This document shows, in pieces, positions 32,512 through 49,778 of a stretch of DNA of 49,778 nt; positions within the stretch are counted from its first letter, which is position 1, and every line of letters begins with the position of its first letter. Source of the DNA: Roseivivax marinus. GTDB lineage: Bacteria > Pseudomonadota > Alphaproteobacteria > Rhodobacterales > Rhodobacteraceae. A program made the position numbers and the translations under genes. Below the pieces are notes generated by a model. The model was not told the origin of the DNA, made no database searches, and saw nothing but the letters and a program-made list of their open reading frames with translations. Location of the stretch: the NCBI RefSeq assembly GCF_900109705.1, contig NZ_FOAI01000020.1, forward strand, positions 1 through 49,778, given 5' to 3'.

Positions 32512-35500
32512 TCAGGCCGCCCCCGCCAGTTCGATCGTGCTGGCGCCGGCGCCGCGGCGCGTGACGCGCACCTGGACCGGGATACGGTCCTTCATCGCTT
32601 CCACGTGGGAAATCACGCCGATCGTGCGGCCCTGCGCCTGGAGCGTCTCGAGGGCGTCCATGGCGATGTCGAGGTCTTCCGCATCGAGTGACCCGAACCC
32701 CTCGTCGATGAAGAGCGTCGCGGCCAGGCCGCCCTGCCCGCCCATCTGCGACAGGGCCAGCGCCAGCGAGAGCGAGACGAGGAAGCGCTCGCCGCCCGAC
32801 AGGGAGCGCGTGGAGCGGACCTCGTCGCCCATGTCGCCATCGACGATGTGCAGCGCCAGGTCCTCGCCACCCTGCATGAGCCGGTAGCGCGGCTTGAGAT
32901 CCGCGAGGTGCAGGTTGGCGCGCTCCACGAGCAGCGAGAGCGTCACGGCCTGGGCGATCTGTGCGAACTTCCCGCCCTGTTTCGAGCCCACGGCCTCGTT
33001 GACCGCGCGCCAGGTGTCGCAGGTCTCCTTTGCCGCCCGGATCTCGGCGTCGAGACCCTTGAGGTGCTCGCGCAGCGCGTCGTCGGCCTTGAGCGCCTGC
33101 GCGATCGCGCCGGTCCGCTCGCGCATCTCGTCGCGGGCCTCCTCGCGCGTCGCCTTGGCGGCACGCAGGTCAGGCTCGGCCTCTTCGGGCAGACCCTTGT
33201 CGAGGCGCTCCTTCAGGTCGCCCTGGCGGGCGGCCAGCGTGGAGACCGCGCCGGTCATCGTCTCGTCGATCGACTTGAGCTTGTCGCGGAGGCGCGTGAC
33301 CTCCGCCGCGCCCTTGCCGAGCAGGACGGCCAGTTCTTCACGGCCGAGCCCGGCCTTTTCGAGCTTGGCATCGAGATCGGCCTTGGCCTCCGTTTGCTCT
33401 GTCCGGGCCGGCACCAGCGCATCGCTCGCCGCCTTGAGGCGAGCGTCGGCGCCGGATTTCAGGCTGCGGGCCTCGGACAGGGCCGTCGCAAGGCGCTCCT
33501 TTTCCTCGGACGCCTTCAGGCGAGCCTCGTTGTGCCGGGTCCGGTGCGTCTCGGTGTCCTCGCCGCCGAGCATCTCCGCCCGCTTGGCCTGCAGCTTGTC
33601 CAGCGCGTCCGTGCGGTCTTTCTCGGCGCGCATGGCGGTATCGAGGTTCGACTGCGCCGACGTGACCGCCGAGCTCGCCGAGGCGATCTTCGGCGCGAGC
33701 TCGCGACGCGTGGCCTCGGCCGTGTCCCGGCGAGAGATCTGCGTGGTCCACCACTGGACGACGCTATCCAGCTTGCCACGCACGCCGACAGGATCCGCAT
33801 CGAGCTTCTCGGGCGTCACGTTGACCGCGGCCAGCGCCGGCGAGATCTCGCGGTCGATGTCGGCGATCCGGCGCACGGCATGGGCCGCCTCCTGGTCTGC
33901 GAGCGAGGCCGCCGATGTCTTCTCCGAGACGATCCGGGCCTGCGCCTCGTGCTTCGGAGCCCGGGTCTCGATCGCCCCGGTATGGGTCTGGACCGCCTTG
34001 CGGGTCTCCTCGAGGGCCGTGCGCAGACGCGCCTGCTCGGCAATCAGCTCAGAGATCTCCGTCCGCCGCGCGGCGAGCTTGCTGGTCAGGGCGGCAAGCG
34101 CCTCCTTGGCGCCGGCCGGGCTCTCAGGAAGCTGGGTCAGGCCGCTCTCTAGCGTCTGGTGCCGCGCCTCGTCGAACGCGCATTCCGCGTCGCCGATGGC
34201 CTTCCCGGCAGTGTCCCGCACCTCGGTGGCCGTCTTGATCGCCAGCGCGGCCGCATCGCGCGCCCGCGCCGCGGCATCAAGATCCCGACGAGCCGTCTCG
34301 AGGGCCCGGCGCTCGGCCTCGAGCTGCTGGCGCATCTCGCGCGCGATGCGGCTCAGGGCGTCGTCGGCCTCCACGGGATGGGTCTTCGATCCGCAGACCG
34401 GGCACGGCGCCTCCGGCTCAAGGGACCGCCGTAGCTCTGCCGCCATGTCGGACGCCGCCGCCTCGGCGCGGTCGACCGGTGCCTGCAGCGCCGCGATCGC
34501 GGCATCCGCGCGGGCGATCTCTTTCTCGGCCTTGCCGTGTGCGTCTGCCGCGGAGCCCTGTTTTGCGGTCTCCTCGGAGATGCGTGTCTCGGCGGTCGTC
34601 TTCCCGGTGGTCTCCTCGTCGTGCGCCCCGGCGGCCCGGGTCATGTCCTTCAGACCCTGTTCGCCCTTCGTCAGCCGGTCCATGCGGGCCTGGGGGTCGT
34701 CCTTCGAGATCTCGTCGAGACTGGACTGCGCTTTCTGCCGTGCGGCCTCCAGCTCGGCGAGCTTGGCGCGATCCGCACCGTCGGCGGTGGTCAGTGTCGC
34801 GCGGCGCTCTTCGGCGTCCGCGGCCTCCTTGCGCGCCCCGATCGCTCTTTTCCGGGCACCGCTTTCTGTCTTCCGTGCCTCGGTGCGCTCATCGAGCAGT
34901 GCCTGGATCTGGGTCCATCGGTCGGCGAGGAGGTGCGCGTCCGGCGCCCGCTTCATCTGTTCAAGCGCGCGTTCGATCGCCTCGGCGGCTGTCTTGTCCT
35001 GACCCTGAAGCTCGTAAAGAGATTTCGCGGCGCTCTCCTGGAGGGTTGCCATCTCGGCGCGGGACCGGCCGGCCGTTTCGGCCTCGCCCTTGGCCGCGAC
35101 GATCAGCTCATCGAGCTTCGTGGCTTCCGTCCATTGCGGCCCGAACGCCTTGAAGACCCGCTCGGCCTCCTCGGCGCCGGTGACGGCCGTCCGGTGCGCC
35201 TCCACGGCTTTCTCGAGGGCCTCGGCCAGCAGGGTCTGTTCGTCTGTCGCAGCCTTTTCCTCGCGCTCGAGATCGCTCACCGCCCGGTCGGCAGACAGGG
35301 CCCGGCCCTGCTCGCTCTTGAGGCCAAGCGCGGTCTCGATCCGCCCAAGCGTAGTGCGATCGTCTTTCGCCGCCTCCACGGCCGCACGTGCGTCGCGCTC
35401 GGCGGCCTCCGCCTTCGCGACACGAGACCGCGCTTCGGTGACGGCCACGTGGACCTGGATCTTCGCCTCGAGGCCGGCGATCTCGGCGAGGGTCGCCGCA

Positions 35501-36243
35501 ATCTGCTTGCCGAGGGTGTCCGCTTCCTCGCGCATGGCCTGGCGGGCCTCGTCGGCCAGCGCGTTCGTCGCCGAGCGCTTCGTCTCGAGCGTGGCGAGCG
35601 CGGCCTTCGCCTCCTCGTGGCGCGCGTAGATGCGCCGTGAGATGTCGCGGTAGATGCCCGTCCCGGTCACCTTCTCGAGGAGCGCGGCGCGCTCGGGGGT
35701 ATTCGCGCGCAGGAAGGCGTCGAAATCGCCCTGCGCCAGCAGAACGGTGCGGCGGAATTCCTCGTAGGCGAGGCCCGTGATCTCCGTCACCCGATCGCGC
35801 ACGGCGTTGATCTGGCTTTCGATGAGCGTGTCGTCATCGACCCGGGTCAGGGCCCGCTCGACGTTCTGCAGCCGCCCCTCGGCCTTGCCGCGGGCGCGCC
35901 GCGCGGTCCAGCTGGCGCGGTAGGTCATCCCGTCGGGCGCCCGGAAGGCGACCTCGGCGAAGCCCTGGGCGGCGCCACGGCGCAGGATGGCGCGCGGATC
36001 GCTCGACTTGATGAATTCCCCGGCGATGTCGGGCACGTCGTCGTTCACGCCCTGGCTCGAGAGCCGTGGGCAGCTGCCGTAGAGCGCCAGGCACAGCGCA
36101 TCGAGGATCGTCGACTTGCCGGCGCCGGTCTTGCCGGTGATCGCGAAGAGACCCGCCGAGCGCAGCGGCTCTTCGGTCAGGTCGATCTCGAACGTGTCGG
36201 CAAGGCTCGCGAGGTTCGCGCCGCGGATGGTCAGGATCTGCAT
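32512..36243 (-). CDS. sbcC: Exonuclease SbcCD, ATPase subunit SbcC
   Basis: A 1243-residue SMC/Rad50-like ATPase. Walker A (GKTGAGKST) is at residues 37-45, followed by the Q-loop region LLAQGDFDAFL near 165. Long coiled coils flank a zinc hook, CPVC at residues 614-617. The C-terminal lobe has LSGGERFLVSLSLALALSQ near 1140 and Walker B LFIDEGFGSLD near 1175. With SbcD it forms the nuclease that cleaves hairpins and protein-blocked DNA ends. The start at 36243 is two bases from the sbcD stop. The intact zinc hook separates it from defence-type SMC ATPases without a hook. Confidence 0.95.
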   Translation of the reverse strand: MQILTIRGANLASLADTFEIDLTEEPLRSAGLFAITGKTGAGKSTILDALCLALYGSCPRLSSQGVNDDVPDIAGEFIKSSDPRAILRRGAAQGFAEVAFRAPDGMTYRASWTARRARGKAEGRLQNVERALTRVDDDTLIESQINAVRDRVTEITGLAYEEFRRTVLLAQGDFDAFLRANTPERAALLEKVTGTGIYRDISRRIYARHEEAKAALATLETKRSATNALADEARQAMREEADTLGKQIAATLAEIAGLEAKIQVHVAVTEARSRVAKAEAAERDARAAVEAAKDDRTTLGRIETALGLKSEQGRALSADRAVSDLEREEKAATDEQTLLAEALEKAVEAHRTAVTGAEEAERVFKAFGPQWTEATKLDELIVAAKGEAETAGRSRAEMATLQESAAKSLYELQGQDKTAAEAIERALEQMKRAPDAHLLADRWTQIQALLDERTEARKTESGARKRAIGARKEAADAEERRATLTTADGADRAKLAELEAARQKAQSSLDEISKDDPQARMDRLTKGEQGLKDMTRAAGAHDEETTGKTTAETRISEETAKQGSAADAHGKAEKEIARADAAIAALQAPVDRAEAAASDMAAELRRSLEPEAPCPVCGSKTHPVEADDALSRIAREMRQQLEAERRALETARRDLDAAARARDAAALAIKTATEVRDTAGKAIGDAECAFDEARHQTLESGLTQLPESPAGAKEALAALTSKLAARRTEISELIAEQARLRTALEETRKAVQTHTGAIETRAPKHEAQARIVSEKTSAASLADQEAAHAVRRIADIDREISPALAAVNVTPEKLDADPVGVRGKLDSVVQWWTTQISRRDTAEATRRELAPKIASASSAVTSAQSNLDTAMRAEKDRTDALDKLQAKRAEMLGGEDTETHRTRHNEARLKASEEKERLATALSEARSLKSGADARLKAASDALVPARTEQTEAKADLDAKLEKAGLGREELAVLLGKGAAEVTRLRDKLKSIDETMTGAVSTLAARQGDLKERLDKGLPEEAEPDLRAAKATREEARDEMRERTGAIAQALKADDALREHLKGLDAEIRAAKETCDTWRAVNEAVGSKQGGKFAQIAQAVTLSLLVERANLHLADLKPRYRLMQGGEDLALHIVDGDMGDEVRSTRSLSGGERFLVSLSLALALSQMGGQGGLAATLFIDEGFGSLDAEDLDIAMDALETLQAQGRTIGVISHVEAMKDRIPVQVRVTRRGAGASTIELAGAA

Positions 36244-36244
36244 G

Positions 36245-37465
36245 TCACTCTCCCACCGAGGCTTCGCGGAACGCGGCGATGTGGCGGTCTTCCGGTGCCG
36301 TGCCGTTGACCTTCTCGAAGGCCGGGCGGAACAGCGCCTCGGGGTTGGTGTCGCCGAGCGATTGCAGCTCGGGCGCCGCATCCTCGTTTGCCGCGTCGCG
36401 CTGCACGCGGATCCCCGCGGGCCGCACCGGCGCCGCGGCGAGCAATTTCTCGGCCTCACCCAGAAGAACCGCCGCGGGCCCGGTCGCCTCCAGGTTCACG
36501 TAGACGAAGGGCTGCAGGCCGCTCGACGTATCGGGATCGAGGTCCAGGTCATCGAGAGCCGCCTTGAACTCCGCGAAGGTCATGGTGCCGCGCTGCGGGA
36601 AGCGCAGCATCTCCGCGGGCCGCGCGATCGGCACATGCGTGTGTGAAATGACGCTCCCCTCGATCTCGAGGACGGTCACGCCGTGGTCGTAGCCGGCCTC
36701 CGCCGCCGAGAGCGGAAAGCACGAGCCCGAGTAGCGGATCCGGCCGCCGAGCGTCTGGTGGCGATGCAGGTGGCCGAGCGCGACGTAGTCGAACGCCTCG
36801 GGAAAAACATCTTCGGGCAGCGCATGCTCGCCGCCGATGAGGATGCGCCGCTCGGCCCCCTCGCTCTCGGTCGCGCCGTGGCAGTGCAGGTGCCCCATGG
36901 CGATGACAGGCAGGTCGCCGGCGGTCTCGCGGGCCCGTGCCGCCATCATCGCGTGAAAGCGGCGCGCCGCCTCGACGATGGGCGAGCCGCGCCCCTCGCC
37001 GGCTGCGAAACTGAGGCCGGGCAGGTCCGGCGCGCGCAGGAACGGGATGGCGCAGACCCAAGCGCGCGGCGCGCCGTCAGGGCCCGGCAGCGGGACCATG
37101 TGCCGGTCGGCCAGGATCTCCTCGCCGTCGCGGCGCACCGTGGCGAAGACATGGACATCGAGGCTTTCGAGAATGGCCGACGGCGCCTCGAGGCGGCCGG
37201 CGGGATCATGGTTGCCGCCGGTGATGACCGTGCGCAGCGTGGGGCGCGCATCCTTGAACCGGCGCAACGCCGAGTAGAGCAGCCGCTGGCTGTCGCCCGA
37301 GGGGTTGATGCCGTCGAAGACATCGCCCGAGACCAGCAGCACGTCGATCTCTTCACGGGTAAGGATGCCGCAGAGCTCGTGGAGCCACACGCGGTGCTCC
37401 TCGTCCCGGGACCAGCCGTTCAGTGTCTGGCCGATATGCCAGTCTGCCGTGTGAAGGATGCGCAT
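36245..37465 (-). CDS. sbcD: Exonuclease SbcCD, nuclease subunit SbcD
   Basis: A 406-residue Mre11-like calcineurin-fold nuclease, partner of SbcC. The metal-binding phosphoesterase motifs are DWHIG (residues 8-12), SGDVFDG, GGNHDPAGR, MGHLHCHG and ALGHLHRHQ. ATG 37465 is chosen because MRILHTADWHIG is the family's standard N-terminus; upstream in-frame sequence is unrelated. sbcC follows directly. The region upstream is the repeat-rich gap that borders the defence island. Confidence 0.95.
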   Translation of the reverse strand: MRILHTADWHIGQTLNGWSRDEEHRVWLHELCGILTREEIDVLLVSGDVFDGINPSGDSQRLLYSALRRFKDARPTLRTVITGGNHDPAGRLEAPSAILESLDVHVFATVRRDGEEILADRHMVPLPGPDGAPRAWVCAIPFLRAPDLPGLSFAAGEGRGSPIVEAARRFHAMMAARARETAGDLPVIAMGHLHCHGATESEGAERRILIGGEHALPEDVFPEAFDYVALGHLHRHQTLGGRIRYSGSCFPLSAAEAGYDHGVTVLEIEGSVISHTHVPIARPAEMLRFPQRGTMTFAEFKAALDDLDLDPDTSSGLQPFVYVNLEATGPAAVLLGEAEKLLAAAPVRPAGIRVQRDAANEDAAPELQSLGDTNPEALFRPAFEKVNGTAPEDRHIAAFREASVGE

Positions 37466-37557
37466 GCTTCTTGATCCCGAGTTATCTTTTACTACAGATC
37501 CGAACGGCCGATAACGAAACGGCGGAGCACCCGAGGGTTCCTTCACCAAAGGCTTGT

Positions 37558-38432: not shown

Positions 38433-40604
38433 TCACCGCATCAAACGCTCGGCCGTCATCGCGACCCCAGCTAGGTCAAGACGACAAGATCTCGCATCAA
38501 GATCAAGGAGGTCTCGGCTCAAGTAGTGGTGAAACTTCTCGAACATGAGATTGGGCGCTCCCGCCGCGAGGTCGGGCTCGTCCTGATCTAAAATTCTCTT
38601 GAGCGCTTCACACAGTTCGGGCGCGTCCCCCTTGCGCTCCACCGTCAGAAAACCATCGTGCAGTTCGACCTCAAACCCAAGTCCTCTCAGGGCGAGCGCC
38701 AGTGATACCGCCTTGATGGTACCTACCCGGATCGCGAGGATGGAGTTGTCCGGTCCGGTAGAAACGATGCTCGCCTGACCGAAGCCGAGCAGGTGGAAGT
38801 TCCGGCGCGCCTCTTCGAGGAATTCCGAGGCAGTCTTATCGAGGTAATTCGGCATCTGCTCGCCTTCGAAGACATCGAACATGCGCTCTATGACTTTGTC
38901 GTGGATATCTCCAGGATCGCCGCCGAACATGGGCGGGGTTCCTGCCTTGGCCGGCTTGACGACGATCGCTTTCTCGCAGTCGTGTATCTCCTCAACGACC
39001 CACCGACGCCCCGAGAAAATCAGCAGCATGCCGGGGGCCAGGATATTGTCGATCGGTATGGTTCCGAGTTCGCGCCCGTCGCATATAAGGCGGAACTCCT
39101 CAGGGGTCTTGAAGACAGCATAGAAACCGTAATGCTCGACCAGCTTTTCGCCGACACGGCCGAGCAAAAGGCTCCCGTCGTCAGCTTGTTCAATCAGGGC
39201 TGTATCAGCTTCCCCAATTGAGCGCAGAACGTCGAGAAACTGTGCCTGGCTCACGGCGCGAAACGGCCCCTCCCGACAAAGTATGGCGTAAAGGCGGCTT
39301 GCCGAAGCGCCTCCGCGCTCCGCAATCACAGAGAGAATTTGATGGACGAGCGTGGACAGATGGAGCGCTTGCGGTTTTGGCGGTTCGCACCACCCCTCCA
39401 GCAGCAGCTCAATCATGGCGATGGCCCGGACGAGGCCCAGCCGAAGCCGATCCACGAAGCTGCTATCTGACGATAGCGCTGTCTCGACAGCATACTGCCG
39501 CAGGATCGCAGGCTGCCCCTCGCGTCGGCCGGATCGCCCCAAACGCTGGCGAAGGGCAGCGACACTGAACGGCGCGCCGATCTGGGCGACGCAGGTCACA
39601 TCACCGATGTCGATCCCAAGCTCGAGCGTGGACGTGCAGACCGCCGTCGTCGGCTTGCCGGGGTCTTTCAGCCGACGCTCCACAAAATCACGATGGTCCC
39701 GGGACAGGCTCGCATGATGCGGATAAAATTCCTGCGGCATGTGCTCGCGCTCGCAGAGGTCGCGCAATCGGTCGGCATAGATTTCGACCGACTGACGCGC
39801 CCCGGCGAACACCAGATTGTCGGTCCCGCGGAGGTTTGCGAAGAGATGTTCGGCGACCGCGTCCGTTGCTGACCGCGCATCGTCCCCTTCGCCACCAGAC
39901 AAGTATCCCCTGACTTGAAGACGAAGTTCGGACTCGCCGCTATCCCCCTCGATCAGCGTAACCTCGTTCGCGCTATCGGGTCGGAGATACGCTTTGGCGA
40001 GCCCCATATCCCCTAGCGTGGCGGATAGTCCGACACGCCGCACCGGATGACCGATTGAGAGCTCCATGCGCGCTAGGAGCGACCGCAATTGCACACCCCG
40101 CTCAGTATCAAGCACGCTGTGCAATTCGTCGATCACCACCGCACGCAGGCCCCGGAAGAGTCGCCGTATCTCAAGGCCACGGCGAACGAACAGGGCCTCG
40201 AGAGATTCCGGAGTAATCATCAGGGTTCCACCGGGGTTTTTGAGAGCCCGAGCTTTTACCGACTGAGACACATCACCATGCCAAGGCACCACCGGCAATA
40301 TTGCGTCCCGACAGATGTCCTCGAGCCGCGCGGCTTGGTCTGTGATAAGCGCCTTGAGCGGACCGATGTAGAGCAAATCAAAACCCTGACCCTGCGATCG
40401 CGGGCCGTCGAGAACTTCGGAGATCAGCGGCAGAAACGCTGCCTCGGTCTTCCCGCCGGCGGTGGAGGCAGCGATAATCACGTCGCCATCGCCATCAAGG
40501 ATCGCGTGCGTTGCCCGCGCCTGGATGTCTCGCAACTCGCGCCAGCCCTTCGAACGGATCCATTTCTGGACCGGACGCGCGAGCTTGTCGAACGCAGCGC
40601 TCAC
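38433..40604 (-). CDS. sngC: Shango-type defence helicase SngC (DEAD/DEAH, Lhr-like)
   Basis: A 723-residue superfamily 2 helicase. Motif I is ASTAGGKTEAAF (residues 46-57), motif II DELH (159-162), motif III SAT (194-196) and motif VI QRLGRSGRR (353-361). The C-terminal half resembles Lhr-type and other defence-associated helicases (RRWVVEEIHD). Start is GTG 40604, three bases after the sngB stop. With the TerB protein and the P-loop ATPase upstream it matches the three-gene Shango anti-phage system (SngA TerB, SngB ATPase, SngC helicase). The assignment rests on domain content and order, not on a database search. Confidence 0.85.
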   Translation of the reverse strand: MSAAFDKLARPVQKWIRSKGWRELRDIQARATHAILDGDGDVIIAASTAGGKTEAAFLPLISEVLDGPRSQGQGFDLLYIGPLKALITDQAARLEDICRDAILPVVPWHGDVSQSVKARALKNPGGTLMITPESLEALFVRRGLEIRRLFRGLRAVVIDELHSVLDTERGVQLRSLLARMELSIGHPVRRVGLSATLGDMGLAKAYLRPDSANEVTLIEGDSGESELRLQVRGYLSGGEGDDARSATDAVAEHLFANLRGTDNLVFAGARQSVEIYADRLRDLCEREHMPQEFYPHHASLSRDHRDFVERRLKDPGKPTTAVCTSTLELGIDIGDVTCVAQIGAPFSVAALRQRLGRSGRREGQPAILRQYAVETALSSDSSFVDRLRLGLVRAIAMIELLLEGWCEPPKPQALHLSTLVHQILSVIAERGGASASRLYAILCREGPFRAVSQAQFLDVLRSIGEADTALIEQADDGSLLLGRVGEKLVEHYGFYAVFKTPEEFRLICDGRELGTIPIDNILAPGMLLIFSGRRWVVEEIHDCEKAIVVKPAKAGTPPMFGGDPGDIHDKVIERMFDVFEGEQMPNYLDKTASEFLEEARRNFHLLGFGQASIVSTGPDNSILAIRVGTIKAVSLALALRGLGFEVELHDGFLTVERKGDAPELCEALKRILDQDEPDLAAGAPNLMFEKFHHYLSRDLLDLDARSCRLDLAGVAMTAERLMR

Positions 40605-40607
40605 CGA

Positions 40608-41915
40608 TCAGAGCTTGAAACTGACGAGATCGTCGTCACCCGACGGACGCGCTCCAGTATCCTCGTCAACGTCAGTAAGATCGTCTCCGCCGTCCTCGGA
40701 CAACTCGATCCTTTCGATCAGGTCGCTCCATTCGGTGCCCGGGTTCTGCTCCAGTATCGACAGCAGGTTCACGAAGGCCGTTACGGTGTTTCGCGGAGTC
40801 CGAAAATAGGCCTCGCCGATACGGTCCGAACAGTGCGCCATGAAAGCTTCAAGCGCCGCGTCGGACACCGCGTTACCCTCGTTTTGCATGACCGCACGGA
40901 CATTTGCCAGCAATACAAACAAATCTTCGGGTGTCAGGTTCGCGAGGCGGATGACGGGCCCCGAAAGATCGACGAGGCCGTCGCGGGCGAAGGTGTTCTC
41001 CGCCAGTCGAGACTGCAAGGCCTCGTAGCTGTAAAGCCCGCGGCGTGTGTTCATCAGGAACTCGGGCGTTCCGCCCATTAAGAACCCAAGGTTCTGCGCG
41101 CTCCCCTGTAGAACGTCGTTCAGAATACGGAGGATCTGCTCGTAGTTCGCATTGCGAGCCTGTGCCGAGGTCAGCTTGTAGAGATTGACCATCTCGTCAA
41201 GCCCGACCAACAAACCCTTGTAGCCTGCCTCGCAAACAAACGCCGACATCAGCTTAAGGTGATCGTAGACACTGGCATCGTCGATGATCGTCCGAACGCC
41301 GAGCGCCTTGCGTGCATCAGTGCGTGTCGAGAACTCGCCGCGCAGCCAACGTAGCGCGGCCGATTTCAGATCCTCGTCACCGTTCTCATGCCCTTCCCAG
41401 TAGCGCCGGATCACTTCTGCGAACTCGAAACCGCCGGTCAGCTCTTCGAAATGGCCAAGACGTTCACGGATGACCGAGCCGGTCGGGATGTCGCGCGCTT
41501 CTGCATCCCGGTGGGCCTGAGATACGAACCGCTCCACGACACTCGCCAGCGCACCACCGTCCGGCTTGGTCCGCGTCGAGAGGTTGCGCGCCATTTCGGC
41601 GTAAAGCCCGCGCGCCTGCCCGCCGGTCGCGTGAATACGGCGATCTGGCGCAAGATCGGCAAACATCACGATAAGCCCTTTCTCCAGAGCGACGAGCCGG
41701 ATCAAGTTCATGAAGAACGTCTTGCCGGATCCGTATTCGCCAATCACGAACCGGATCGCCGAACCGCCATCCGCGATCCGGTCCATATCCTTGACCAATT
41801 CCTCGATCTCACGCACCCGTCCGACCTGAATGTGACGCAATCCGAGCTTGGGCACGACACCCGCTCGTAGTGCCTGCACGATCGCATCGCGTTCACGCGG
41901 TTTCAGTCTGGACAT
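40608..41915 (-). CDS. sngB: Shango-type defence ATPase SngB (DUF2791, BrxD-like)
   Basis: A 435-residue P-loop ATPase of the DUF2791/BREX BrxC-BrxD-like group. The family opening (RDAIVQALRAGVVPKLGLRHIQVGR) leads to the P-loop GEYGSGKT at residues 59-66, and Walker B is GLLVGLDEMVNLYKL near 230. The C-terminus is acidic. Its start overlaps sngA by 23 bases and its stop is three bases from sngC, so the three are one operon. BREX itself is ruled out because no PglX methyltransferase or PglZ is nearby. Confidence 0.85.
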   Translation of the reverse strand: MSRLKPRERDAIVQALRAGVVPKLGLRHIQVGRVREIEELVKDMDRIADGGSAIRFVIGEYGSGKTFFMNLIRLVALEKGLIVMFADLAPDRRIHATGGQARGLYAEMARNLSTRTKPDGGALASVVERFVSQAHRDAEARDIPTGSVIRERLGHFEELTGGFEFAEVIRRYWEGHENGDEDLKSAALRWLRGEFSTRTDARKALGVRTIIDDASVYDHLKLMSAFVCEAGYKGLLVGLDEMVNLYKLTSAQARNANYEQILRILNDVLQGSAQNLGFLMGGTPEFLMNTRRGLYSYEALQSRLAENTFARDGLVDLSGPVIRLANLTPEDLFVLLANVRAVMQNEGNAVSDAALEAFMAHCSDRIGEAYFRTPRNTVTAFVNLLSILEQNPGTEWSDLIERIELSEDGGDDLTDVDEDTGARPSGDDDLVSFKL

Positions 41916-44436
41916 TCCTGGTCACCCCTCCGAGTTTTTCGTTGATCGCCGCCGAGACATCCGGCGAGACGTCGTATCCGTCGAATTCATCCAGCAACGG
42001 CTCATCATAGGTCTCGAACGACCACTCGTTCACCGCTTCGAGTGCGCCAGCGGGCATTACGCCATGTGTGTTGCAGACTGACTGGAACGCCTCTTCGCTC
42101 CAATGCGCCTGGGACACCAACGTGCGCACCAGCTCGGCGTGTTTCTCATCGAGTCCATCGAACGGATGGTCTGTTGCGAGACCACCGACGGTCTCGCTCT
42201 CTTCGTCCTCAGCGAAGATTTCACCCAGCACCGAGGACACACGTTCTGTGTCCGATCGGATTGCCGCGATACGCGCGCTGTCGAGCGTCCGCGCCTCAGT
42301 GACCGGCTCGTCCGGAATGGCCTCGCCGGGAGCCCCGCTCCTTGGTGGGCGCACAGTCCTAGGCCCATCCGGAACAACGCCTGCATGCAAGTCGGAATAA
42401 GCGAGTCCGGGGTCCATGCCGAGCGCCTTGTAGAGTTTTTCGATCCCGGCCACCTCCTCAGACTGGATCACACCGTCTGCATGCGCCGCGGCGACGATCG
42501 ATGCCCTGAGAGCGGCGAGGTCCTCCTCCGCGGACTCCTTCAGTTTTCGCCTGAGAAGAGCAATGTCGGGCGGCACGGCAAGGAACCAGTCTACATTTGC
42601 CTGAAGCCGGTGCTTTTCCTGTTCGCTCAAGCCCTCGGCGCTTCGGGCCTGCTCCGCCAGCGCCACTCGCTCTGCCTCAGCAATATGTCCATCCGCGTGT
42701 GCCACGAAGGAGGCCAGCGCGAGCTGCATGAGCGCGGAACGGTAGCCCGCCGAGACATCCTCGAGCTTCTCCACCGGCGCTCCGAGATGGAAGAGAACCA
42801 CAGGCTCTTCGGCTTTGGGGGAACGCAAGGCGAAGCGTGGATCCGGTGCCAGGCCGAACCCAAGACGCGCCAGCGCGTCCGCAGCTCCAGTCAAATGCCG
42901 CTTCCCGATCTTGTCCGGTCTGACACCCTCGAGCCGCTTGACGACATCGCCTGCCGTAACGAGACCGCCGGCCGCAACGATCTCCGCCGCCCACGCCTTG
43001 AGGGCATCCATTTCGGCGGCGGGAAACAAAGACCAGAGTTCCAAGGGCAGCAGCGCATGCCCTTCCATGGTGCCACGCCCATCGGGATTTCGACCGAGGA
43101 ATCGGCTATATTTGTCGAGGTCTTCCATCGCTGCCTCGGCGATCTTCTGAGCTTGCTGTATAGGTTGCCGCAAGCCAGACACGTCTGGCACGGGTTTGCC
43201 TCCGAGTTCGGCAGTCACCGTTCCGGTAAACTCGCTGGACGCAGCCCTGTATGTCGCCTTCAAGGTTGCCCGTGGCTTGCGAATTTTCAGCCCTTCTGGA
43301 TGGAGGGCCATGAACTTCAATCTGAAAAGTTCTCTGAATTCCTCGAAGCACCGTGACGCCGGGGTTCGCAATCGGCTCTCTGGATCACACATCAGCCAGC
43401 TTAGAACCCAGTCGGCATCGAGTGGCTCGTCCTCCCGGATCCTGACACCGAGAGCCAGCTTCAGCGAGAACGGCAGCTCCCAAGTCTGGTTCTCAAAAAT
43501 TGGTTCAATCTTGTGGGCTTCGATCACCCCGGCTTGGCCGATTTCGATGAATTCGCCCAGGTATCGCTGAACGGAACGGTTTCCCGGGTATAAACATGCC
43601 AGCCGTCGCGCTTCTTTCACGAGATCCTGCCGCTCGTCCTGCGATGGCTCGTCCATGAAAAACCTACGCTCTAGCCCGTAGAAGTAGAGGAACATGTATC
43701 CAGGATCGTAGGAGGTATCGGAGCGCCCCGAAGCCAGCCAATCGAGATACGTCGCCCGGCAGCGTGGAGGAATCCCGGAGTATCCCGGCCAGTAGGGCAT
43801 ATCGTGACCGGCTTTGTCGGTTCCTGCTCGAGCAACCGGCAACGCAGGATCGATATAGGGGCGCGACTTCTCACCGTAGCCGTAGGTGCTCAGCGCCGGC
43901 GGGGTCCCAACATAGATCATACCGTCTAGGTGCCGCCCCCCAACCTCGACTGTCTCCCCTTTCGGAACCCAGCCCTGACGTCGCGATGCAGACGCGGGGG
44001 CTCGCTGTTGGCCACGGTCGCGCCTGGCGGCGATCTCGCGTGAATGCCGTGCGATTGCCGCGTAATCTTGGCTGAACTCCGACCTGCGATTCGAAGATGG
44101 CCTCTCCGTGGGATCGGTATTGGTTTTGTTTACAGCGCCCCAAGGTGCCGAACTCTCTGGCGGCGCATACTCGTTGGCTCCGCCCTTCAAACCATGCTTT
44201 TCCGACAGAGGCGGAGGCGTCGGAGCACCGGTATGCACCTTATTCGTGCGAGACGCGCGTTTGAGCTTCCTACGCCTCTCAAGGAACCATACTCCAACAG
44301 CAGGAGCGATGAAGGCAACCGCCATCTGCGCACCAGGCGACAATATGTCACCGGCTGCGACGATCCCGATCATGGCTACGACGAATAGCAGCGAATACGA
44401 GATAACCACGCGAAAAACAGCGAGTATATATTTCAT
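41893..44436 (-). CDS. sngA: Shango-type TerB-domain protein SngA
   Basis: An 847-residue protein. Two hydrophobic helices at residues 8-28 and 35-52 suggest an inner-membrane anchor. A basic, Pro/Ser-rich linker follows, then a TerB-N domain (PYIDPALPVA, YWPGYSGIPPRCRATYLDWL, residues about 190-400). TerB-like helical repeats with Asp/Glu metal-type motifs are near 575-680 (FVAHADGHIAEAER; AAHADGVIQSEE), and a TerB-C region lies near 760-820 (SEEAFQSVCNTHG). TerB domains come from tellurite-resistance stress systems and are fused in many defence loci. It is the first gene of the sngABC operon and diverges from the OLD nuclease gene with 145 bases between. Confidence 0.85.
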   Translation of the reverse strand: MKYILAVFRVVISYSLLFVVAMIGIVAAGDILSPGAQMAVAFIAPAVGVWFLERRRKLKRASRTNKVHTGAPTPPPLSEKHGLKGGANEYAPPESSAPWGAVNKTNTDPTERPSSNRRSEFSQDYAAIARHSREIAARRDRGQQRAPASASRRQGWVPKGETVEVGGRHLDGMIYVGTPPALSTYGYGEKSRPYIDPALPVARAGTDKAGHDMPYWPGYSGIPPRCRATYLDWLASGRSDTSYDPGYMFLYFYGLERRFFMDEPSQDERQDLVKEARRLACLYPGNRSVQRYLGEFIEIGQAGVIEAHKIEPIFENQTWELPFSLKLALGVRIREDEPLDADWVLSWLMCDPESRLRTPASRCFEEFRELFRLKFMALHPEGLKIRKPRATLKATYRAASSEFTGTVTAELGGKPVPDVSGLRQPIQQAQKIAEAAMEDLDKYSRFLGRNPDGRGTMEGHALLPLELWSLFPAAEMDALKAWAAEIVAAGGLVTAGDVVKRLEGVRPDKIGKRHLTGAADALARLGFGLAPDPRFALRSPKAEEPVVLFHLGAPVEKLEDVSAGYRSALMQLALASFVAHADGHIAEAERVALAEQARSAEGLSEQEKHRLQANVDWFLAVPPDIALLRRKLKESAEEDLAALRASIVAAAHADGVIQSEEVAGIEKLYKALGMDPGLAYSDLHAGVVPDGPRTVRPPRSGAPGEAIPDEPVTEARTLDSARIAAIRSDTERVSSVLGEIFAEDEESETVGGLATDHPFDGLDEKHAELVRTLVSQAHWSEEAFQSVCNTHGVMPAGALEAVNEWSFETYDEPLLDEFDGYDVSPDVSAAINEKLGGVTRNVQTETA

Positions 44437-44581
44437 TGAATATGTCCGAGCTTGGCCATTGGCTTATTCTGACGACGCGTGGCCGCTCGGGCAACTGCTG
44501 ATGCGTGTGGAGCACACTAGCCCTGCAAACGGTGCGGTTGAAGCACTGTTACACGATCAGGTTGATTATCATGCCTGACTA

Positions 44582-46534
44582 GTGCCTTCTGCACCGCAAA
44601 GACCCTTAACCTCTAGTTCTCTATCGTCGCGTGGTGCAACCTTGCAAATTAAGACAGTAAAAATCGTAAACTTTCGATCGATAGTCGACGAAACCATAGA
44701 TCTCTCTAAATATAACTCGTTTGTCGGCCCAAACGGTGCCGGAAAGTCCACAACACTACATGCATTGAATGTGTTTTTTGGAGAAATAAATAGTTTTTCA
44801 GACGAAGACTTTCACGCAAGAAACACTGAGAAACCCATTAAGATCACGGTCACATTCTGCGATCTAGGTGAAGAAGCCGCAGAAGAATTCAAGCACTACG
44901 CACGAGCAGATCAGCTTATTGTGCATGCTGAAGTTAGTAAAGCCGACGACGGTAGCTTTAAGAGAGTTATTAGGGGGGAGAGACTAATTTTTCCTCCATT
45001 TAGGGAGTATTTTGAGGCCGCAACGGCAAAAGACAGGGGGATCGTATTCAAGAATCTTCGAGAAAGGTATGATGGAATCGACGCGGCAACAAACGATGGA
45101 GATCGCTCTGCGGCGCTTGCTAAATATGAGGGAGAGCTGCCCGAGGATCAAAAAGAGCTGGTTCCTAGCGGCGGCGAATTTTTTGGAATTAGTAAAGGTA
45201 TTCATAAATTTCAGCGCCATTTGTGCTGGGTTTACGTCCCTGCAGTCAAAGACGCGTCCAGCGAATCCGAGGAAGCCAAAACCTCTCACTTGGGAAAGCT
45301 CATTCAGCACACCATAAGAAGCCAGATGAACTACGACGCTGAACTTGAGCGCATCAGAACAGACGCATTAGACGCCTACTCAAAGCTTTTGTCGGACCAA
45401 ACGTCTCACTTGGGAGACTTGCAAGCACGACTGTCGGAGAGATTGCAAGCCGCCGTAATGACAGAGGCAGACCTCAAATTGGACTGGAAGAAGGACGAGA
45501 AGTCTGTTTCTGTGCAGGATCCAATCGCGCAGGTGCTTCTGTCCGAACGTGGATATGTTGATCGAGTTGATAAGTTTGGGCATGGGCTGCAACGATCATT
45601 TTTACTTGTAATCCTTCAAGAGTTAATGGCCGTTGACAATGCAGTAAGCCCAACACTCATCCTCGGCTGCGAAGAGCCAGAACTTTATCAGCATCCGCCC
45701 CAAGCTCGTCACCTTGCAGAGATATTGATGGAATTGGCGGCTGGAGATTCTCAAGTTCTTCTCACCACCCATAGCCCATACTTTATCGATGTTGAGTATT
45801 TCGATGGTATCAAGGTTTTCAGAAATACATCTGGCGTAGCAACCGTTTCATCGTCTTCATTCTCAGAAGTCCTGGACAACTACAATACAGCATTCAAAAA
45901 ACCTCTGCAAAACGAAGATCAAGCGCGCACTAAGCTCGCAATACAAACCCAACCTAAGTTCAATGAGGTATTCTTTGCTGAACGCGTAGTCGTCGTTGAG
46001 GGCGTATCTGATTTGGCCTGCATCGAGGCTTATATGCGGCTATCCGGAAAAAGGTCAGAGTTTCAGAAGTCCGGAGCAACCATCGTTGTTTGCGAGGGAA
46101 AAAGCTCGCTCGCGCTCATGATTCTAATAATGAAGAGCTTCAAAATTCCGTATCACGCTGTCTTTGACTGCGACTCCGAGTATGAGGAAAAATTCGCTGC
46201 CAATCCGGACAAGTTCAGGGAGCCCTATAATGAGCATATTAGGGATAACGACGCGATATTAGAGCTATCGGGGCATGAAAAAATCGGAGGCTTTCCAACC
46301 GAACATATTTTTCTGCCAAATGTAACGGGCTGGCGTTTTAATATTGAGAGGACACTCGAAGCAGAGTTTGGCGAGGACATCGAGGCATGCCTACAATCTG
46401 GCCGTGACGCCGTCGGTAATTTACGGAATTCCAGAAAGCATCCGCTATTCATTGCGGCGTCTATGTCATCTGCGTGGAATAAGGGAAAGACCTTTCCCGT
46501 CCTACAAAAATTGGTAGAACGTATCTTGATCTAG
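44582..46534 (+). CDS. OLD-family ATP-dependent nuclease (AAA plus TOPRIM)
   Basis: A 650-residue protein. The N-terminal ABC-type ATPase begins KIVNFRSIVD with Walker A GPNGAGKST near residue 49, and its second half has EEPELYQHPPQAR and TTHSPYF. The C-terminal TOPRIM nuclease has the glutamate E473 (VVVVEGVSDL) and DxD at D529/D531 (FDCDS). No UvrD-type partner follows, so it is a class 1 OLD rather than Gabija. GTG 44582 is the longest start; homologues usually begin at LQIKTVKIV, which here has TTG 44642, so either is possible. Base composition is clearly more AT-rich than all neighbours, a sign of recent transfer. OLD proteins are linked to phage exclusion. Confidence 0.9.
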   Translation: MPSAPQRPLTSSSLSSRGATLQIKTVKIVNFRSIVDETIDLSKYNSFVGPNGAGKSTTLHALNVFFGEINSFSDEDFHARNTEKPIKITVTFCDLGEEAAEEFKHYARADQLIVHAEVSKADDGSFKRVIRGERLIFPPFREYFEAATAKDRGIVFKNLRERYDGIDAATNDGDRSAALAKYEGELPEDQKELVPSGGEFFGISKGIHKFQRHLCWVYVPAVKDASSESEEAKTSHLGKLIQHTIRSQMNYDAELERIRTDALDAYSKLLSDQTSHLGDLQARLSERLQAAVMTEADLKLDWKKDEKSVSVQDPIAQVLLSERGYVDRVDKFGHGLQRSFLLVILQELMAVDNAVSPTLILGCEEPELYQHPPQARHLAEILMELAAGDSQVLLTTHSPYFIDVEYFDGIKVFRNTSGVATVSSSSFSEVLDNYNTAFKKPLQNEDQARTKLAIQTQPKFNEVFFAERVVVVEGVSDLACIEAYMRLSGKRSEFQKSGATIVVCEGKSSLALMILIMKSFKIPYHAVFDCDSEYEEKFAANPDKFREPYNEHIRDNDAILELSGHEKIGGFPTEHIFLPNVTGWRFNIERTLEAEFGEDIEACLQSGRDAVGNLRNSRKHPLFIAASMSSAWNKGKTFPVLQKLVERILI

Positions 46535-46690
46535 CGCCGAACCACGTAACCGCCTAATCGTCCGAGCCGCAAGCCTCTTCACGTGTCACGCTGCCTAAAA
46601 GTTCTCATGACTGCGGGACCGGTTTCTGAGTCAATTACATACTAGTGATGAGATAAAATTGTCGTTGCACTATGTTCCAGAGGTTGTCCG

Positions 46691-48622
46691 ATGACCGCTA
46701 GCTTCGATATTTGTCCTCATATTTTTGGCATTCTAAATCGTTATGAGCCAACCCACTGCAACGGTCGGCCTGCGATTAAGATCGAGAGGCCATGTTCCGT
46801 CAATATAGAATATATGGAAGAAATAGCGCGAGAACTGCAATCCGATGAGGTGATGGCGCAGCTGGAGTCGGCAGAAGTCGCAACTTTGGCTGTGGTAGCG
46901 GCGAACTGCCTACAACGGTGTGGTGACGATGCAGGTGTATCGATCGGGCTCCAGGCCGTCCTTTCTTCGCGCCCAGGTGAACTCGATGCCGACATCGCAC
47001 TGATTGCGATATCCGATTTCGGGGTTAATCGAGATATCCTCAAGGTCTTTACTGGGATGACGAAGTCCGCTGCCATGATCGACGCAATCATTGAAGCGGC
47101 ATTACTAAAAAAGGCGCCGTTAGCTGGCTGGCTTAACAGATTCGACGTAAATGCCTTGGTGATCCGGGATAAAAATCAGGCTAGGCGCGCACTCCCTGCA
47201 GTAGAGTTCCTGAAAGAGGACCTTGTGCCGACCGTCCTTGTAGCTGCTATGGCTCGCGGCCTCGGTTGGACGCCATGGGTAAAGCTCTTCGCGATTCTAT
47301 ACGATGAGGTCGAACTTGCCCTGGAGGTCAAGTCAACTGTTCCGGCCAGGCGTCAATACGATAATGAAGACACGCTAGCGATGCGGCGGGCGGCATGGGA
47401 GAACATACTGCCCGACACCTCGGTCAGAGAGGTCGCACGGCTTATCCTCGATCTCGGCGGAGCTCTTTCATCCTCAGGTCCCGACGTGCGCGCCGTCTAC
47501 GTCCAGCGTTTGCGCAATGCCATCGGTATTGAGCCCGAACTGCGGCGGGCCGCTTTGGAGGCACTGCTCAGCCGGTGCCCGCCGCAGCAGCACGATCTAG
47601 CGCTCTTCGCGGCGACGCGATTTGTGGAAGCAGATGATGCAACATTCATCGGAGCGCTCATCGACCACCCAGACCGAGAGGTTGGCTACCGGGCAGACAT
47701 GGTGCGCCATGCGGTTTTCGATAAATCTGATGGTGACGAAGTCTGGCCGACTCCGGGTGTCAGCACGATCTCTGGCGGGCTTTTCAGCATCCGACTCAAC
47801 CCAGTTTCGTCGGAACACTCGCACACCTGGATCGGCGACCGTCTCATCGAATTACTCATTGAACAAACAGTGGCCGGTGAGGAAAAAAGGTTCTCGCAGC
47901 AATATCAAGATCACAGCGAGGAGGGCGAGGAAGGACTACTGCGCAGCTTCTTCTCCGACCTCGCTTACCGCCTTCGCGACTTGGGAGACAGCCTGCGGGC
48001 GACGGCGAGGGCTACCGGCTCATCCCGCGTTACAAGCATTGATCTGAACTATCGGCCAGTCGACAAGTCAGAGGAGGGGAAGCCTGGAGTGAGCCCGAGA
48101 GGAGACCTAGCGCCACCCTCATTCTCCGCTGATCTTTGCTTGATCGTCGATCCGTATCTTGAAGGTCGTCCACTCGGCAAGCGGGCCACGCTCGTGCAGG
48201 CGAAGCGACTACGGCGTAAGGACACCACCCGCCCGGAGAAAGGTTTAGCAAGTTCCTTCAGACTGGAGCCCGGGCAGATGTCGGACCTGCTCCGGCAGAC
48301 CGGGTCGTCATTCTATTTGTTCCAGTGCCCGGGGCTGCTCGACAGAGGCATTCCGATAGTCCCAACGCAGCTGGTTGAGGATCTGGCGCGGTTTAACTCT
48401 GGGAGCGCCTCGCAACTTCCAACGGACCTAGTCGGTCCGGCGTCTCGCCCGTTCGCGGAATGGCTCACATATATGGTGCTCGGTTTGCGGACGGGTGACC
48501 CGTTTGCAGAGCTGGTTGCCAAGGCTGAAGGTGCAGACGGACGGCGACCGCGCCCGTTGGCGAGTTTTGGAACTGTTGAGATCGTGGTTCGCGTAAATGA
48601 TATCAAGCCAAGGGACGGCTAA
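46691..48622 (+). CDS. Unknown 643-residue defence-island protein with possible QxK nuclease site
   Basis: I do not recognise this as a named family. Residues about 30-400 are alanine/leucine-rich helices that look like HEAT-type repeats. Residues 405-470 form a charged, probably flexible region. The C-terminal part contains D481 (FSADLCLIVD, also D487) followed by TLVQAKR with Q503-A-K505, the arrangement of Mrr-type PD-(D/E)xK nucleases, and then LLRQTGSSFYLFQCP. A nuclease role is an inference from this pattern. AGAGG nine bases before the ATG supports the start. It follows the OLD nuclease gene by 156 bases on the same strand but has different base composition. Confidence 0.7.
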   Translation: MTASFDICPHIFGILNRYEPTHCNGRPAIKIERPCSVNIEYMEEIARELQSDEVMAQLESAEVATLAVVAANCLQRCGDDAGVSIGLQAVLSSRPGELDADIALIAISDFGVNRDILKVFTGMTKSAAMIDAIIEAALLKKAPLAGWLNRFDVNALVIRDKNQARRALPAVEFLKEDLVPTVLVAAMARGLGWTPWVKLFAILYDEVELALEVKSTVPARRQYDNEDTLAMRRAAWENILPDTSVREVARLILDLGGALSSSGPDVRAVYVQRLRNAIGIEPELRRAALEALLSRCPPQQHDLALFAATRFVEADDATFIGALIDHPDREVGYRADMVRHAVFDKSDGDEVWPTPGVSTISGGLFSIRLNPVSSEHSHTWIGDRLIELLIEQTVAGEEKRFSQQYQDHSEEGEEGLLRSFFSDLAYRLRDLGDSLRATARATGSSRVTSIDLNYRPVDKSEEGKPGVSPRGDLAPPSFSADLCLIVDPYLEGRPLGKRATLVQAKRLRRKDTTRPEKGLASSFRLEPGQMSDLLRQTGSSFYLFQCPGLLDRGIPIVPTQLVEDLARFNSGSASQLPTDLVGPASRPFAEWLTYMVLGLRTGDPFAELVAKAEGADGRRPRPLASFGTVEIVVRVNDIKPRDG

Positions 48623-48712
48623 GGCCTGTCAAAGTCGAGCTTTTCGCCGTTTGCATTGGTGCGATCGGCTAAATTGAAACCGGAAAGCTGCGGAGAGATA
48701 ATTCCTAGCCGA

Positions 48713-48883
48713 TCACCCTTCCCGCCTCTCGAGCCATTCCGCAATCATACGCCGAATCATCTCGGGTCTCGTGGGCACATCCTGCTCGACCCGCCTTGCA
48801 TCGTCTATGGCCTGCAGCATCTCCGCATCTACGCGCACTAGGACCGGCGATGTATCGACTTTCGGTCGGCCTTTAGATTTCAT
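48713..48883 (-). CDS. Ribbon-helix-helix DNA-binding protein
   Basis: A 56-residue CopG/Arc-type protein: a basic start (MKSKGRPK), a beta strand (VLVRVDAEML), then two helices (LQAIDDARRVEQ; RPEMIRRMIAEWLERRE). ATG 48883 is preceded by AAGAGG, which decides against longer forms of the frame. Its start codon sits on one arm of a perfect 9-bp inverted repeat, a likely autoregulatory operator. No toxin gene follows. It diverges from the 168-residue unknown gene. Confidence 0.75.
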   Translation of the reverse strand: MKSKGRPKVDTSPVLVRVDAEMLQAIDDARRVEQDVPTRPEMIRRMIAEWLERREG

Positions 48884-48912
48884 GATATTGACCTCTTGAT
48901 TTTTCAATATCA
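48883..48912. promoter_or_regulatory. Operator-like inverted repeat at the RHH gene start
   Basis: TGATATTGA (48883-48891) and TCAATATCA (48904-48912) are perfect inverted 9-bp arms with a 12-bp spacer. They cover the start codon and ribosome site of the ribbon-helix-helix gene and lie in the divergent region shared with the gene at 48994. RHH proteins commonly bind such repeats to repress themselves. The AT-rich sequence contrasts with the surroundings. Confidence 0.55.
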
Positions 48913-48993
48913 AGATCACATGTAATGCGTGTCGGCGCAAGAGTTGCAGCTCCCGCACCGACACTGACCACTTTGATCTGTTGGGAGATCTCC

Positions 48994-49500
48994 ATGGCTG
49001 CGCACGCCCTTAGCACGACCCCACTTTCGTCCGGAACCTGTTCCGAGAACTTCTTCGGCAATGCTGACGCGCTCGACGCGATCATCGATTATTTGCACGC
49101 GGCCATCGACGCCGAGGCGCTCATCGGCGATCGATTTTTTGATATCGAGCTGAGCCAGTTTGCGCATCAGGCCGCGGATGCTTGGGCTACTTGCGAGACC
49201 GCAACGCTTCGTTTCCTTGTGCGCTCTCATTTAGGAGACGCACATGTGCTCGCTGGAGAACATGTGCTCGACGTGCTCCAGGATCGCGGACTCGATCACG
49301 ATCGCCTGCGCACCGCGCCTGTGTCCCTGATGGACGCGGCCTGCCGTTCGGCCGCGCAGGTGGATCCCGTGAGCCTGGTCCTGACCCGGCAGCTGTCGCA
49401 CCTCGCCTCGCTCCTTCGGGTCATCATCGAGAACAGCGAGGTAGCCCTCGATCCGGATCCGGATCCGGACTTTGATCCGGACGCGCCCTCACACGGCTGA
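48994..49500 (+). CDS. Hypothetical protein with acidic Asp-Pro tail
   Basis: A 168-residue protein of unknown function. It is mostly helical and has no signal peptide. It ends in DPDPDPDFDPD encoded by a run of GATCCG-type units, suggesting expansion of a short repeat. A second internal duplication of 18 bases starts at 49242 and 49260. GGGAGA six bases before ATG 48994 supports this start. The gene diverges from the RHH regulator and may share its operator. Nothing in the sequence suggests an enzyme. Confidence 0.6.
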   Translation: MAAHALSTTPLSSGTCSENFFGNADALDAIIDYLHAAIDAEALIGDRFFDIELSQFAHQAADAWATCETATLRFLVRSHLGDAHVLAGEHVLDVLQDRGLDHDRLRTAPVSLMDAACRSAAQVDPVSLVLTRQLSHLASLLRVIIENSEVALDPDPDPDFDPDAPSHG

Positions 49501-49778
49501 ACCCTTTTCCCGTTCGCATCCAAAGGCCCCGAGCTCAGCTCGCGGCCGCCCCTCACAATCTCTATCTGCTTCGGGAGGCTCCCCATTCGCAGTTTCGTCC
49601 CACATCTCCTGCATCGTTGATGACTCTGAAGTCACTCTGCGCGCCGGGCTCCTGCCCGCCGCGCTGCACGAGGCCGCCGCCCTCGCCGGCTTCGACATCC
49701 TCTCCCGGCTCACGGATCGCAGCCGGCTGCTGATCCGCTGCCGGACCTGCGACACCGTTCTCGTCAAGCGCCGCAGCG
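49472..49778 (+). CDS. Partial hypothetical protein running off the window
   Basis: From about 49600 to the window end one plus-strand frame has clear coding character with G or C at most third positions: VTLRAGLLPAALHEAAA, then DILSRLTDRSRLLIRC and CRTCDTVLVKRR. It carries a CxxC pair of possible zinc-binding type. The frame is open back to 49445, and the only start-like codon before the coding part is TTG 49472, so the true start is uncertain. The C-terminus lies outside the window. No family is assigned. Confidence 0.45.
   Translation, partial: MIRTRPHTAEPFSRSHPKAPSSARGRPSQSLSASGGSPFAVSSHISCIVDDSEVTLRAGLLPAALHEAAALAGFDILSRLTDRSRLLIRCRTCDTVLVKRRS

Follow-up and report, generated by a model that had tools for sequence, protein, structure and literature searches.

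What is encoded by a 643-residue reading frame that matches nothing in the libraries searched and lies between an OLD-type gene and a small regulator gene of Roseivivax marinus? The gene is on contig NZ_FOAI01000020.1 (assembly GCF_900109705.1), in a stretch of 49,778 nucleotides that was analyzed as a whole and that we refer to as the window. A first-pass annotation of this stretch, made from the sequence alone, had suggested a large sensor-plus-nuclease protein acting either as a single-gene defense system or as the partner of the adjoining OLD protein.

The Gene and Its Setting

The gene and the neighboring defense-type genes of the window are as follows.

38433-40604, minus strand: SngC of Shango (PADLOC, 1.1e-269)
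40608-41915, minus strand: SngB of Shango (PADLOC, 1.8e-175)
41893-44436, minus strand: SngA of Shango (PADLOC, 5.1e-94)
44582-46534, plus strand: OLD-type ATPase-TOPRIM protein of 650 aa (AAA_15, OLD-like_TOPRIM), 156 bases upstream of the 643-aa gene
46691-48622, plus strand: 643-aa gene, founding member of the family (full-length relatives, common start, dN/dS)
48713-48964, minus strand: small ribbon-helix-helix protein, downstream (RHH_1 at 5.3e-06, 26.6 bits vs a cut-off of 20.5)

The placement between an OLD-type gene and a small regulator holds, with AAA_15 (7e-39) and OLD-like_TOPRIM (1.4e-13) recognized by Pfam upstream and RHH_1 downstream, and the supposed defense island is borne out by the SngABC genes of Shango, which PADLOC recognizes upstream on the other strand. 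In PADLOC, the OLD-type protein is matched better by Old (2e-56) than by GajA (1.4e-27), and no gene for a GajB-kind helicase stands beside it. Class 1 OLD genes are said, in the accessible part of PMC10568477, to stand alone, away from other defense genes, a rule to which the OLD-type gene beside Shango would be an exception. The GC content steps across the window, from 0.466 in the OLD gene through 0.572 in the 643-aa gene and 0.60-0.61 in the Shango genes to 0.708 in the sbcC-like gene and 0.739 in cobN, and these steps give the picture of an imported, layered island. The rest of the window (10 further ORFs scanned) holds an SbcD/SbcC-like pair and cobalamin-type genes, and no Rfam model matched at its gathering score within positions 44300-49778.

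Judged by comparison with its closest relatives, the 643-aa ORF is a real gene under purifying selection. It is present in a single copy in its own genome (DNA search), and AGAGG lies 7 nt 5' of its ATG. Proteins from Sphingomonas sp. Ant H11 (L002) and from plasmid pEP2 of Sphingobium sp. EP60837 (L003) are 68% and 77% identical to it over nearly the whole length, and its first residue is in register with both in the alignment. Against L003, dN/dS is 0.23 for the whole gene (dN 0.141, dS 0.61); by segment, dN and dS are 0.233 and 0.702 for residues 1-178, 0.145 and 0.449 for residues 179-378, and 0.083 and 0.698 for residues 379-643, with a dN/dS of about 0.12 for these last 265 residues. The segment values indicate that the protein is under selection and that its C-terminal end is the most constrained. 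In the window, the Shango genes are immediately preceded by the SbcC-like and SbcD-like pair (32512-37549, minus strand). In L003, the family member is directly followed by a YhaN/exonuclease pair, and the exonucleases are 26% identical (E 7e-06).

Distribution of the Family

Relatives of the 643-aa protein are found in three phyla, Pseudomonadota, Cyanobacteriota, and Actinomycetota, and are rare in the draws searched. Single-sequence searches of genomes matched 1 of 292 in the order, 1 of 9 in the genus, 1 of 385 in the class, and 2 of 394 in the family, and the genome of the window itself was the true match in each draw. The second match of the family draw (L005, E 6.9e-4) was rejected as spurious; it falls within a probable response-regulator ORF. 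Among plasmids, 2 of 72,556 records matched, and phage records gave either no match or E values of 0.8 and above. A profile of four domains (A2) matched 4 of 398 genomes including that of the window, adding a full-length distant relative in genome G1018 (L009/L012, E 1.3e-33). The matches in G984 and G1087 are C-terminal remnants. With L009 as a bridge, tblastn reached 20 plasmid records, from Klebsiella (8), Streptomyces (3), Enterobacter (2), Raoultella (2), Tolypothrix (2), and Microchaete (1), plus the known Sphingobium and Rhizobium records. Back searches with an Enterobacter (L016) and a Tolypothrix (L018) member returned 18 records each, the same set minus Sphingobium and Rhizobium. These plasmid records are often near-identical, with 11 at ≥99% to L016 and 3 at ≥99% to L018.

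The profile of the later 11-sequence alignment (A6) matched 5 of 398 genomes in the phylum draw, namely that of the window, G1018, G984, G1087, and one holding an outlying protein (L025); in the class of G1018 it matched 3 of 48 genomes, again G1018, G984, and G1087. IMG/VR contigs encode two further relatives (L035 and L036), with 75 and 79% identity to L015 of Enterobacter; the remaining IMG/VR scans gave no relative. L016 had no DNA match (blastn) in 20,395 Escherichia coli records, and a Rhodococcus match (H5, E 2) was dropped, being outside any listed gene.

Several loci hold altered forms of the gene. C-terminal remnants limited to roughly the final 60-85 residues of the domain occur at L007 (6001-6178, Rhizobium sp. 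C104), L010/L013, and L011/L014, and on this basis the family seems to decay readily. In Rhizobium sp. 32-5/1 (L004, 11440-13331), the deposited sequence shifts frame just before the region of D481, which may reflect a broken gene or a sequence error. The outlying relative L025 (952-2280 in genome G1072) is a 442-aa protein that shares the acidic motif and D-x(21)-QAK with the family and has other ends, and is perhaps a sister family. Nothing in PADLOC matched it, no Pfam match passed the cut-off, and its domain as query found no plasmid record.

The supposition that the protein is undescribed agrees with the libraries searched. The 643-aa protein had no match in Pfam, PADLOC-DB, NCBIfam, or PHROGs (E up to 1) and none among PDB sequences (E up to 10). 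Seven relatives gave nothing over the cut-off in Pfam or PADLOC; in PADLOC-DB 2.0.0 of 2023 they had no true match and one chance match (L018, E 0.11), and the C-terminal domain alone matched nothing in PADLOC (E up to 10). Weak Pfam matches of the relatives, all under the cut-off, were set aside (DUF7740 at 0.04 and 0.033, VapB at 0.06, and NFRKB_winged at 0.18). The accession numbers of six relatives are not mentioned in the literature searched, which included few subscription papers and no supplements, and PMC12839542 does not mention Shango, TerB, Mrr, or QxK.

Domain Architecture and Conserved Residues

Alignments of 10 (A5) and 11 (A6) sequences divide the protein into a variable front part and a conserved C-terminal domain, with the following features.

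46691-47824, plus strand: front part, residues 1-378 (profile comparisons of front parts; model helices of very low confidence)
47825-48619, plus strand: conserved C-terminal domain, residues 379-643, from T379-W380 (alignments A5 and A6; BLAST links between groups)
47927-47932, plus strand: E413-E414, candidate acidic motif I (10/10 covering rows)
48071-48073, plus strand: E461, acidic residue of a K/R-x-E stretch (10/10 covering rows)
48131-48133, plus strand: D481, candidate metal-binding aspartate, motif II (11/11 rows; constant distance to QxK)
48197-48205, plus strand: Q503-A504-K505, QxK, motif III (Q and K in 11/11 rows)
48275-48277, plus strand: Q529, glutamine after the QxK stretch (11/11 rows)

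The residues D481, D487, and Q503-A-K505 lie where the first-pass annotation had put them. Of these four named residues, D481, Q503, and K505 are invariant in the 11 rows of A6, whereas D487 is variable (D in seven rows, R in three, and E in one); position 504 is occupied by A, V, or C. D532 is also invariant in the 11 rows of A6, in which the L004 row is a fragment without E413, E414, and E461. The 21 invariant columns of A5 are T379, W380, D383, E387, F401, E413, E414, R455, E461, D481, Q503, K505, Q529, D532, Y542, P558, G598, G602, A612, G614, and R621. The pairs or single residues E413/E414, E461, and Q529 were absent from the first-pass annotation. The distance from D to Q is 22, that is D-x(21)-QxK, in all 14 motif-holding sequences, L025 included, with a search pattern that allowed 19 to 26; 15 pieces were examined, and the 15th (the N-terminal piece of L004) ends before the motif. 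Together with the dN/dS of about 0.12 over the last 265 residues, this fixed spacing speaks against a chance occurrence of the motif.

In the 12 full-length members, the common C-terminal domain begins at T-W-x-x-D and spans 233-265 residues behind a front part of 85-524 residues; the domain of L002, as read by eye, has 292 residues in the L002 frame. By BLAST, each group of domains is linked to others at about 22-35% identity, that of the window being 34% identical to L012, 28% to L016, and 22% to L018. The link between the window and the three Streptomyces domains runs only via other members (e.g., L002 to L019, 26%). Among the front parts, those of L012 and the Enterobacter group have a common stretch (probability 92), and nine other profile comparisons between groups reached a probability of 10.5 or less, which suggests that front parts are mostly unrelated in sequence between groups. 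The large two-part protein that was first proposed is supported, its front part being variable and its C-terminal domain conserved. The front part of the 643-aa protein (residues 1-378) is presumed to be a sensor or oligomerization part. The long helical N-terminal region with repeats is plausible, in that the very-low-confidence model has helices there and the region is perhaps helical; Pfam recognized no repeat family.

PD-(D/E)XK enzymes with a QxK have, in order, an acidic helix residue, D, QxK, and then Q. In the family, an acidic pair, D, QxK, and then Q follow one another in members of three phyla, which suggests a signature of the PD-(D/E)XK type, and the nuclease-type D...QxK site proposed at the outset gains from the invariance of D481, Q503, and K505 across these phyla and from the constant spacing.

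Fold Prediction and Comparison with Known Nucleases

Structure prediction, which the first-pass annotation had named beforehand as a test, returned a mean pLDDT of about 39 in both models, too low for either to be used. The full-length AlphaFold model (the window protein and L002, two sequences) has a mean pLDDT of 39.4 and a pTM of 0.25, and the model of residues 371-643 (the window protein, L002, L035, and L036, four sequences) has a mean pLDDT of 38.8 and a pTM of 0.37. In these low-confidence models E413/E414 are on a helix, the QxK is on a strand in neither, and the full-length model has it in a helix. Foldseek with the C-terminal model, itself of low confidence, gave nothing at E ≤ 0.001. 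A profile search of PDB sequences gave three matches (E 0.0041 to 0.35), all to a helical stretch only and the best to a designed protein, and a further PDB sequence search gave one match (E 1.3).

The outlier L025 aligns with the family over 132 columns (probability 94) and is like it in the acidic motif, D-x(21)-QAK, and the Q of Q529, but its front and end differ and D532 is not kept in the alignment. Proteins of the Cap4_nuclease family (PF14130) have a role in defense and, like the family, a Q-x-K motif (QVK in L037 and L038, the latter under the cut-off of that family). The 643-aa protein and seven relatives have no Pfam match to Cap4_nuclease, and hhalign against two Cap4 stretches, a weak test, gave a probability of 0.1. 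To our knowledge, no activity has been measured for any relative. The accessible part of a 2026 report on DefensePredictor (PMC13092281) describes 13 E. coli defense systems with PD-(D/E)XK domains, validated against phage; like the family, with its candidate nuclease domain, they are undescribed proteins or operons with such nucleases. The family is new relative to the libraries searched, and its comparison with these 13 systems is by description, not by sequence.

We consider it probable, with some confidence, that the C-terminal domain is a nuclease, and two rival readings were weighed. Instead of being a nuclease, the domain could bind DNA or nucleotides or have a regulatory role, with the conserved residues serving another function. 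AlphaFold, Foldseek, and the PDB profile search, which provided no fold evidence, are consistent with such a domain, but the conserved residues agree in kind and order with those expected of PD-(D/E)XK enzymes, in a 10-sequence alignment with only 21 invariant columns, and we regard this reading as unlikely. The protein could also be a restriction enzyme of type IV, akin to Mrr, with modified DNA as its substrate. According to the accessible part of PMC12707154, Mrr and MspJI have a PD-QxK motif, and these enzymes share with the family the D...QxK order and a C-terminal nuclease-type domain behind another part. Unlike them, the family has a domain of 233-265 residues with the further invariant residues E413/E414, E461, Q529, and D532. 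Moreover, hmmscan found no match to Mrr_cat (PF04471) in the 643-aa protein, seven relatives, or L025, and the family profile, compared by hhalign with a set of nine Mrr_cat stretches, gave a probability of 0.6 (1.0 or less against six single ones), whereas in a control three strong Mrr_cat stretches found six weaker ones with probabilities of 4 to 96. The alignment of the family with the Mrr_cat set covered 14 columns around the QxK and placed the QAK of one stretch (L026) one column off that of the family. Profile comparison thus does not place the family in Mrr_cat, and Pfam recognized no winged-helix or SRA reader domain in the 643-aa protein. The hhalign negatives are weak evidence and blind to a more distant relation because Mrr_cat against Cap4 fails equally (0.2). 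On balance, the Mrr-like reading is quite unlikely, and the assignment to the Mrr type is not retained.

Gene Neighborhoods of Relatives

The neighborhoods of relatives were compared at 13 loci (the window, L002, L003, L004, L012, L015-L020, L035, and L036; one per near-identical plasmid set), excluding the remnants L007, L013, and L014 and the outlier L025. At 7 of the 13, as a raw count, a gene matching PADLOC lies within about 10 kb, in agreement with the defense neighborhood first proposed. The seven loci and their defense genes are as follows.

Window: Shango, OLD
L002: GajA
L003: GajA and GajB
L015: PD-Lambda-4, PD-T4-5, LmuA/LmuB (Lamassu)
L016: HamB (Hachiman)
L018: HmaB, HmaC (Hma)
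L020: PDC-S28

No defense gene was shown near L004, L012, L017, and L019, where the neighbors of L004 and L017 lie outside the scan, L019 had one scanned neighbor without a match, and L012 is a 4.2-kb contig. The annotated neighbors of L004 include an ATPase, a UvrD-type helicase, and a PD-(D/E)XK protein. L035 and L036 were read as prophage by their ORF content rather than by a PADLOC scan. In L035 (6879-8999), the member stands between replication and lysis-type ORFs on a contig with integrase, replication, and lysozyme-like ORFs, and in L036 (870-3113) it stands beyond tail genes on a contig with tail and UmuDC-like ORFs. Such positions are typical places for prophage accessory genes. The family appears to be mobile, as its gene in the window has a GC content below that of the sbcC-like and cobN genes and relatives are on plasmids and prophage-like contigs.

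The neighbors differ by locus, with Gabija and AbiGi common to L002 and L003 only, and we therefore favor a stand-alone unit over two arrangements in which the 643-aa protein would need a second gene. A two-gene unit with an AbiGi-type protein, whose other half has been lost from the window, is suggested by an AbiGi gene (PF10899, 4.3e-10 for the L003 protein) that lies 9 bases upstream of the member in L003 and, in L002, 182 bases upstream; however, AbiGi is limited to these two close relatives, from Sphingobium and Sphingomonas. By tblastn the window has none (best E 0.13), and the remaining 14 of the 16 loci searched have none either. We consider such a unit very improbable. The adjoining OLD protein, of which the 643-aa protein could be the effector or partner in a two-gene defense system, is encoded on the same strand 156 bases away, with no promoter-like or terminator-like site between the two genes in a consensus scan, and the accessible part of PMC10568477 names OLD partners elsewhere, GajB in Gabija and a reverse transcriptase in retrons. 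Against this pairing, the OLD protein of the window has only weak tblastn matches (23-24%) at 16 other loci, to the GajA of L002 and L003, the order is reversed in L002, where GajA comes after the family gene, and the GC contents are unlike (0.466 vs 0.572). The OLD protein is thus not a fixed partner at the loci compared, and the partnership first proposed is the least probable of the readings weighed here. The AbiGi-type genes of L003 (11383-11991, annotated as an antitoxin) and L002 (9174-9818) stand directly before the family member, and a toxin-like partner is not evident.

Proposed Function and Significance

Our preferred reading, which we hold to be somewhat better than an even prospect, is that the 643-aa gene encodes a single-gene defense nuclease of a new family; our confidence in what such a nuclease cuts is lower than in its being one. 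The C-terminal domain would take a PD-(D/E)XK fold, with E413/E414 and D481 as ligands of a divalent metal and with Q503 and K505 completing the QxK site; the protein would cut DNA. The front part may sense an infection cue or control assembly and then release the nuclease, and the freed nuclease might cut phage DNA or, as abortive infection, host DNA. The target would be a phage or plasmid, making this an anti-phage (or anti-plasmid) single protein. The protein is predicted to work alone, with OLD, Shango, Gabija, AbiGi, Hachiman, Lamassu, and Hma being co-residents of its islands and not its subunits.

More broadly, we propose, at slightly less than even confidence, an unnamed modular family of single-gene immune nucleases in at least three phyla, in which one domain (TWxxD, E-E, K/R-x-E, D-x(21)-QxK, and Q-x-x-D) would be joined to unrelated front parts and carried by plasmids and prophages, and which in Tolypothrix is encoded directly behind the Hma ATPase gene, possibly as a nuclease for Hma. 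If this is true, the immune repertoire gains a family missed by current detection libraries (PADLOC, NCBIfam, Pfam, and PHROGs), with one conserved cutter on unrelated front parts, and it follows from one cutter with differing front parts that sensing by the front parts is testable by comparison of groups. Members occur in Enterobacteriaceae and on prophage-like contigs, for which hosts and phages are at hand, making a test easy.

The Tolypothrix locus (L018, 5683-10777, Tolypothrix sp. PCC 7601) has the family member 142 bases behind HmaC on the same strand. Hma is described in the accessible part of PMC8565338 as a three-gene candidate system of a helicase, a methyltransferase, and an ATPase. 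The family member may have joined this Hma locus as a further component, and it could supply a nuclease that is not named in the described trio. Genes for XisH, XisI, and Uma2 lie between HmaB and HmaC at this locus.
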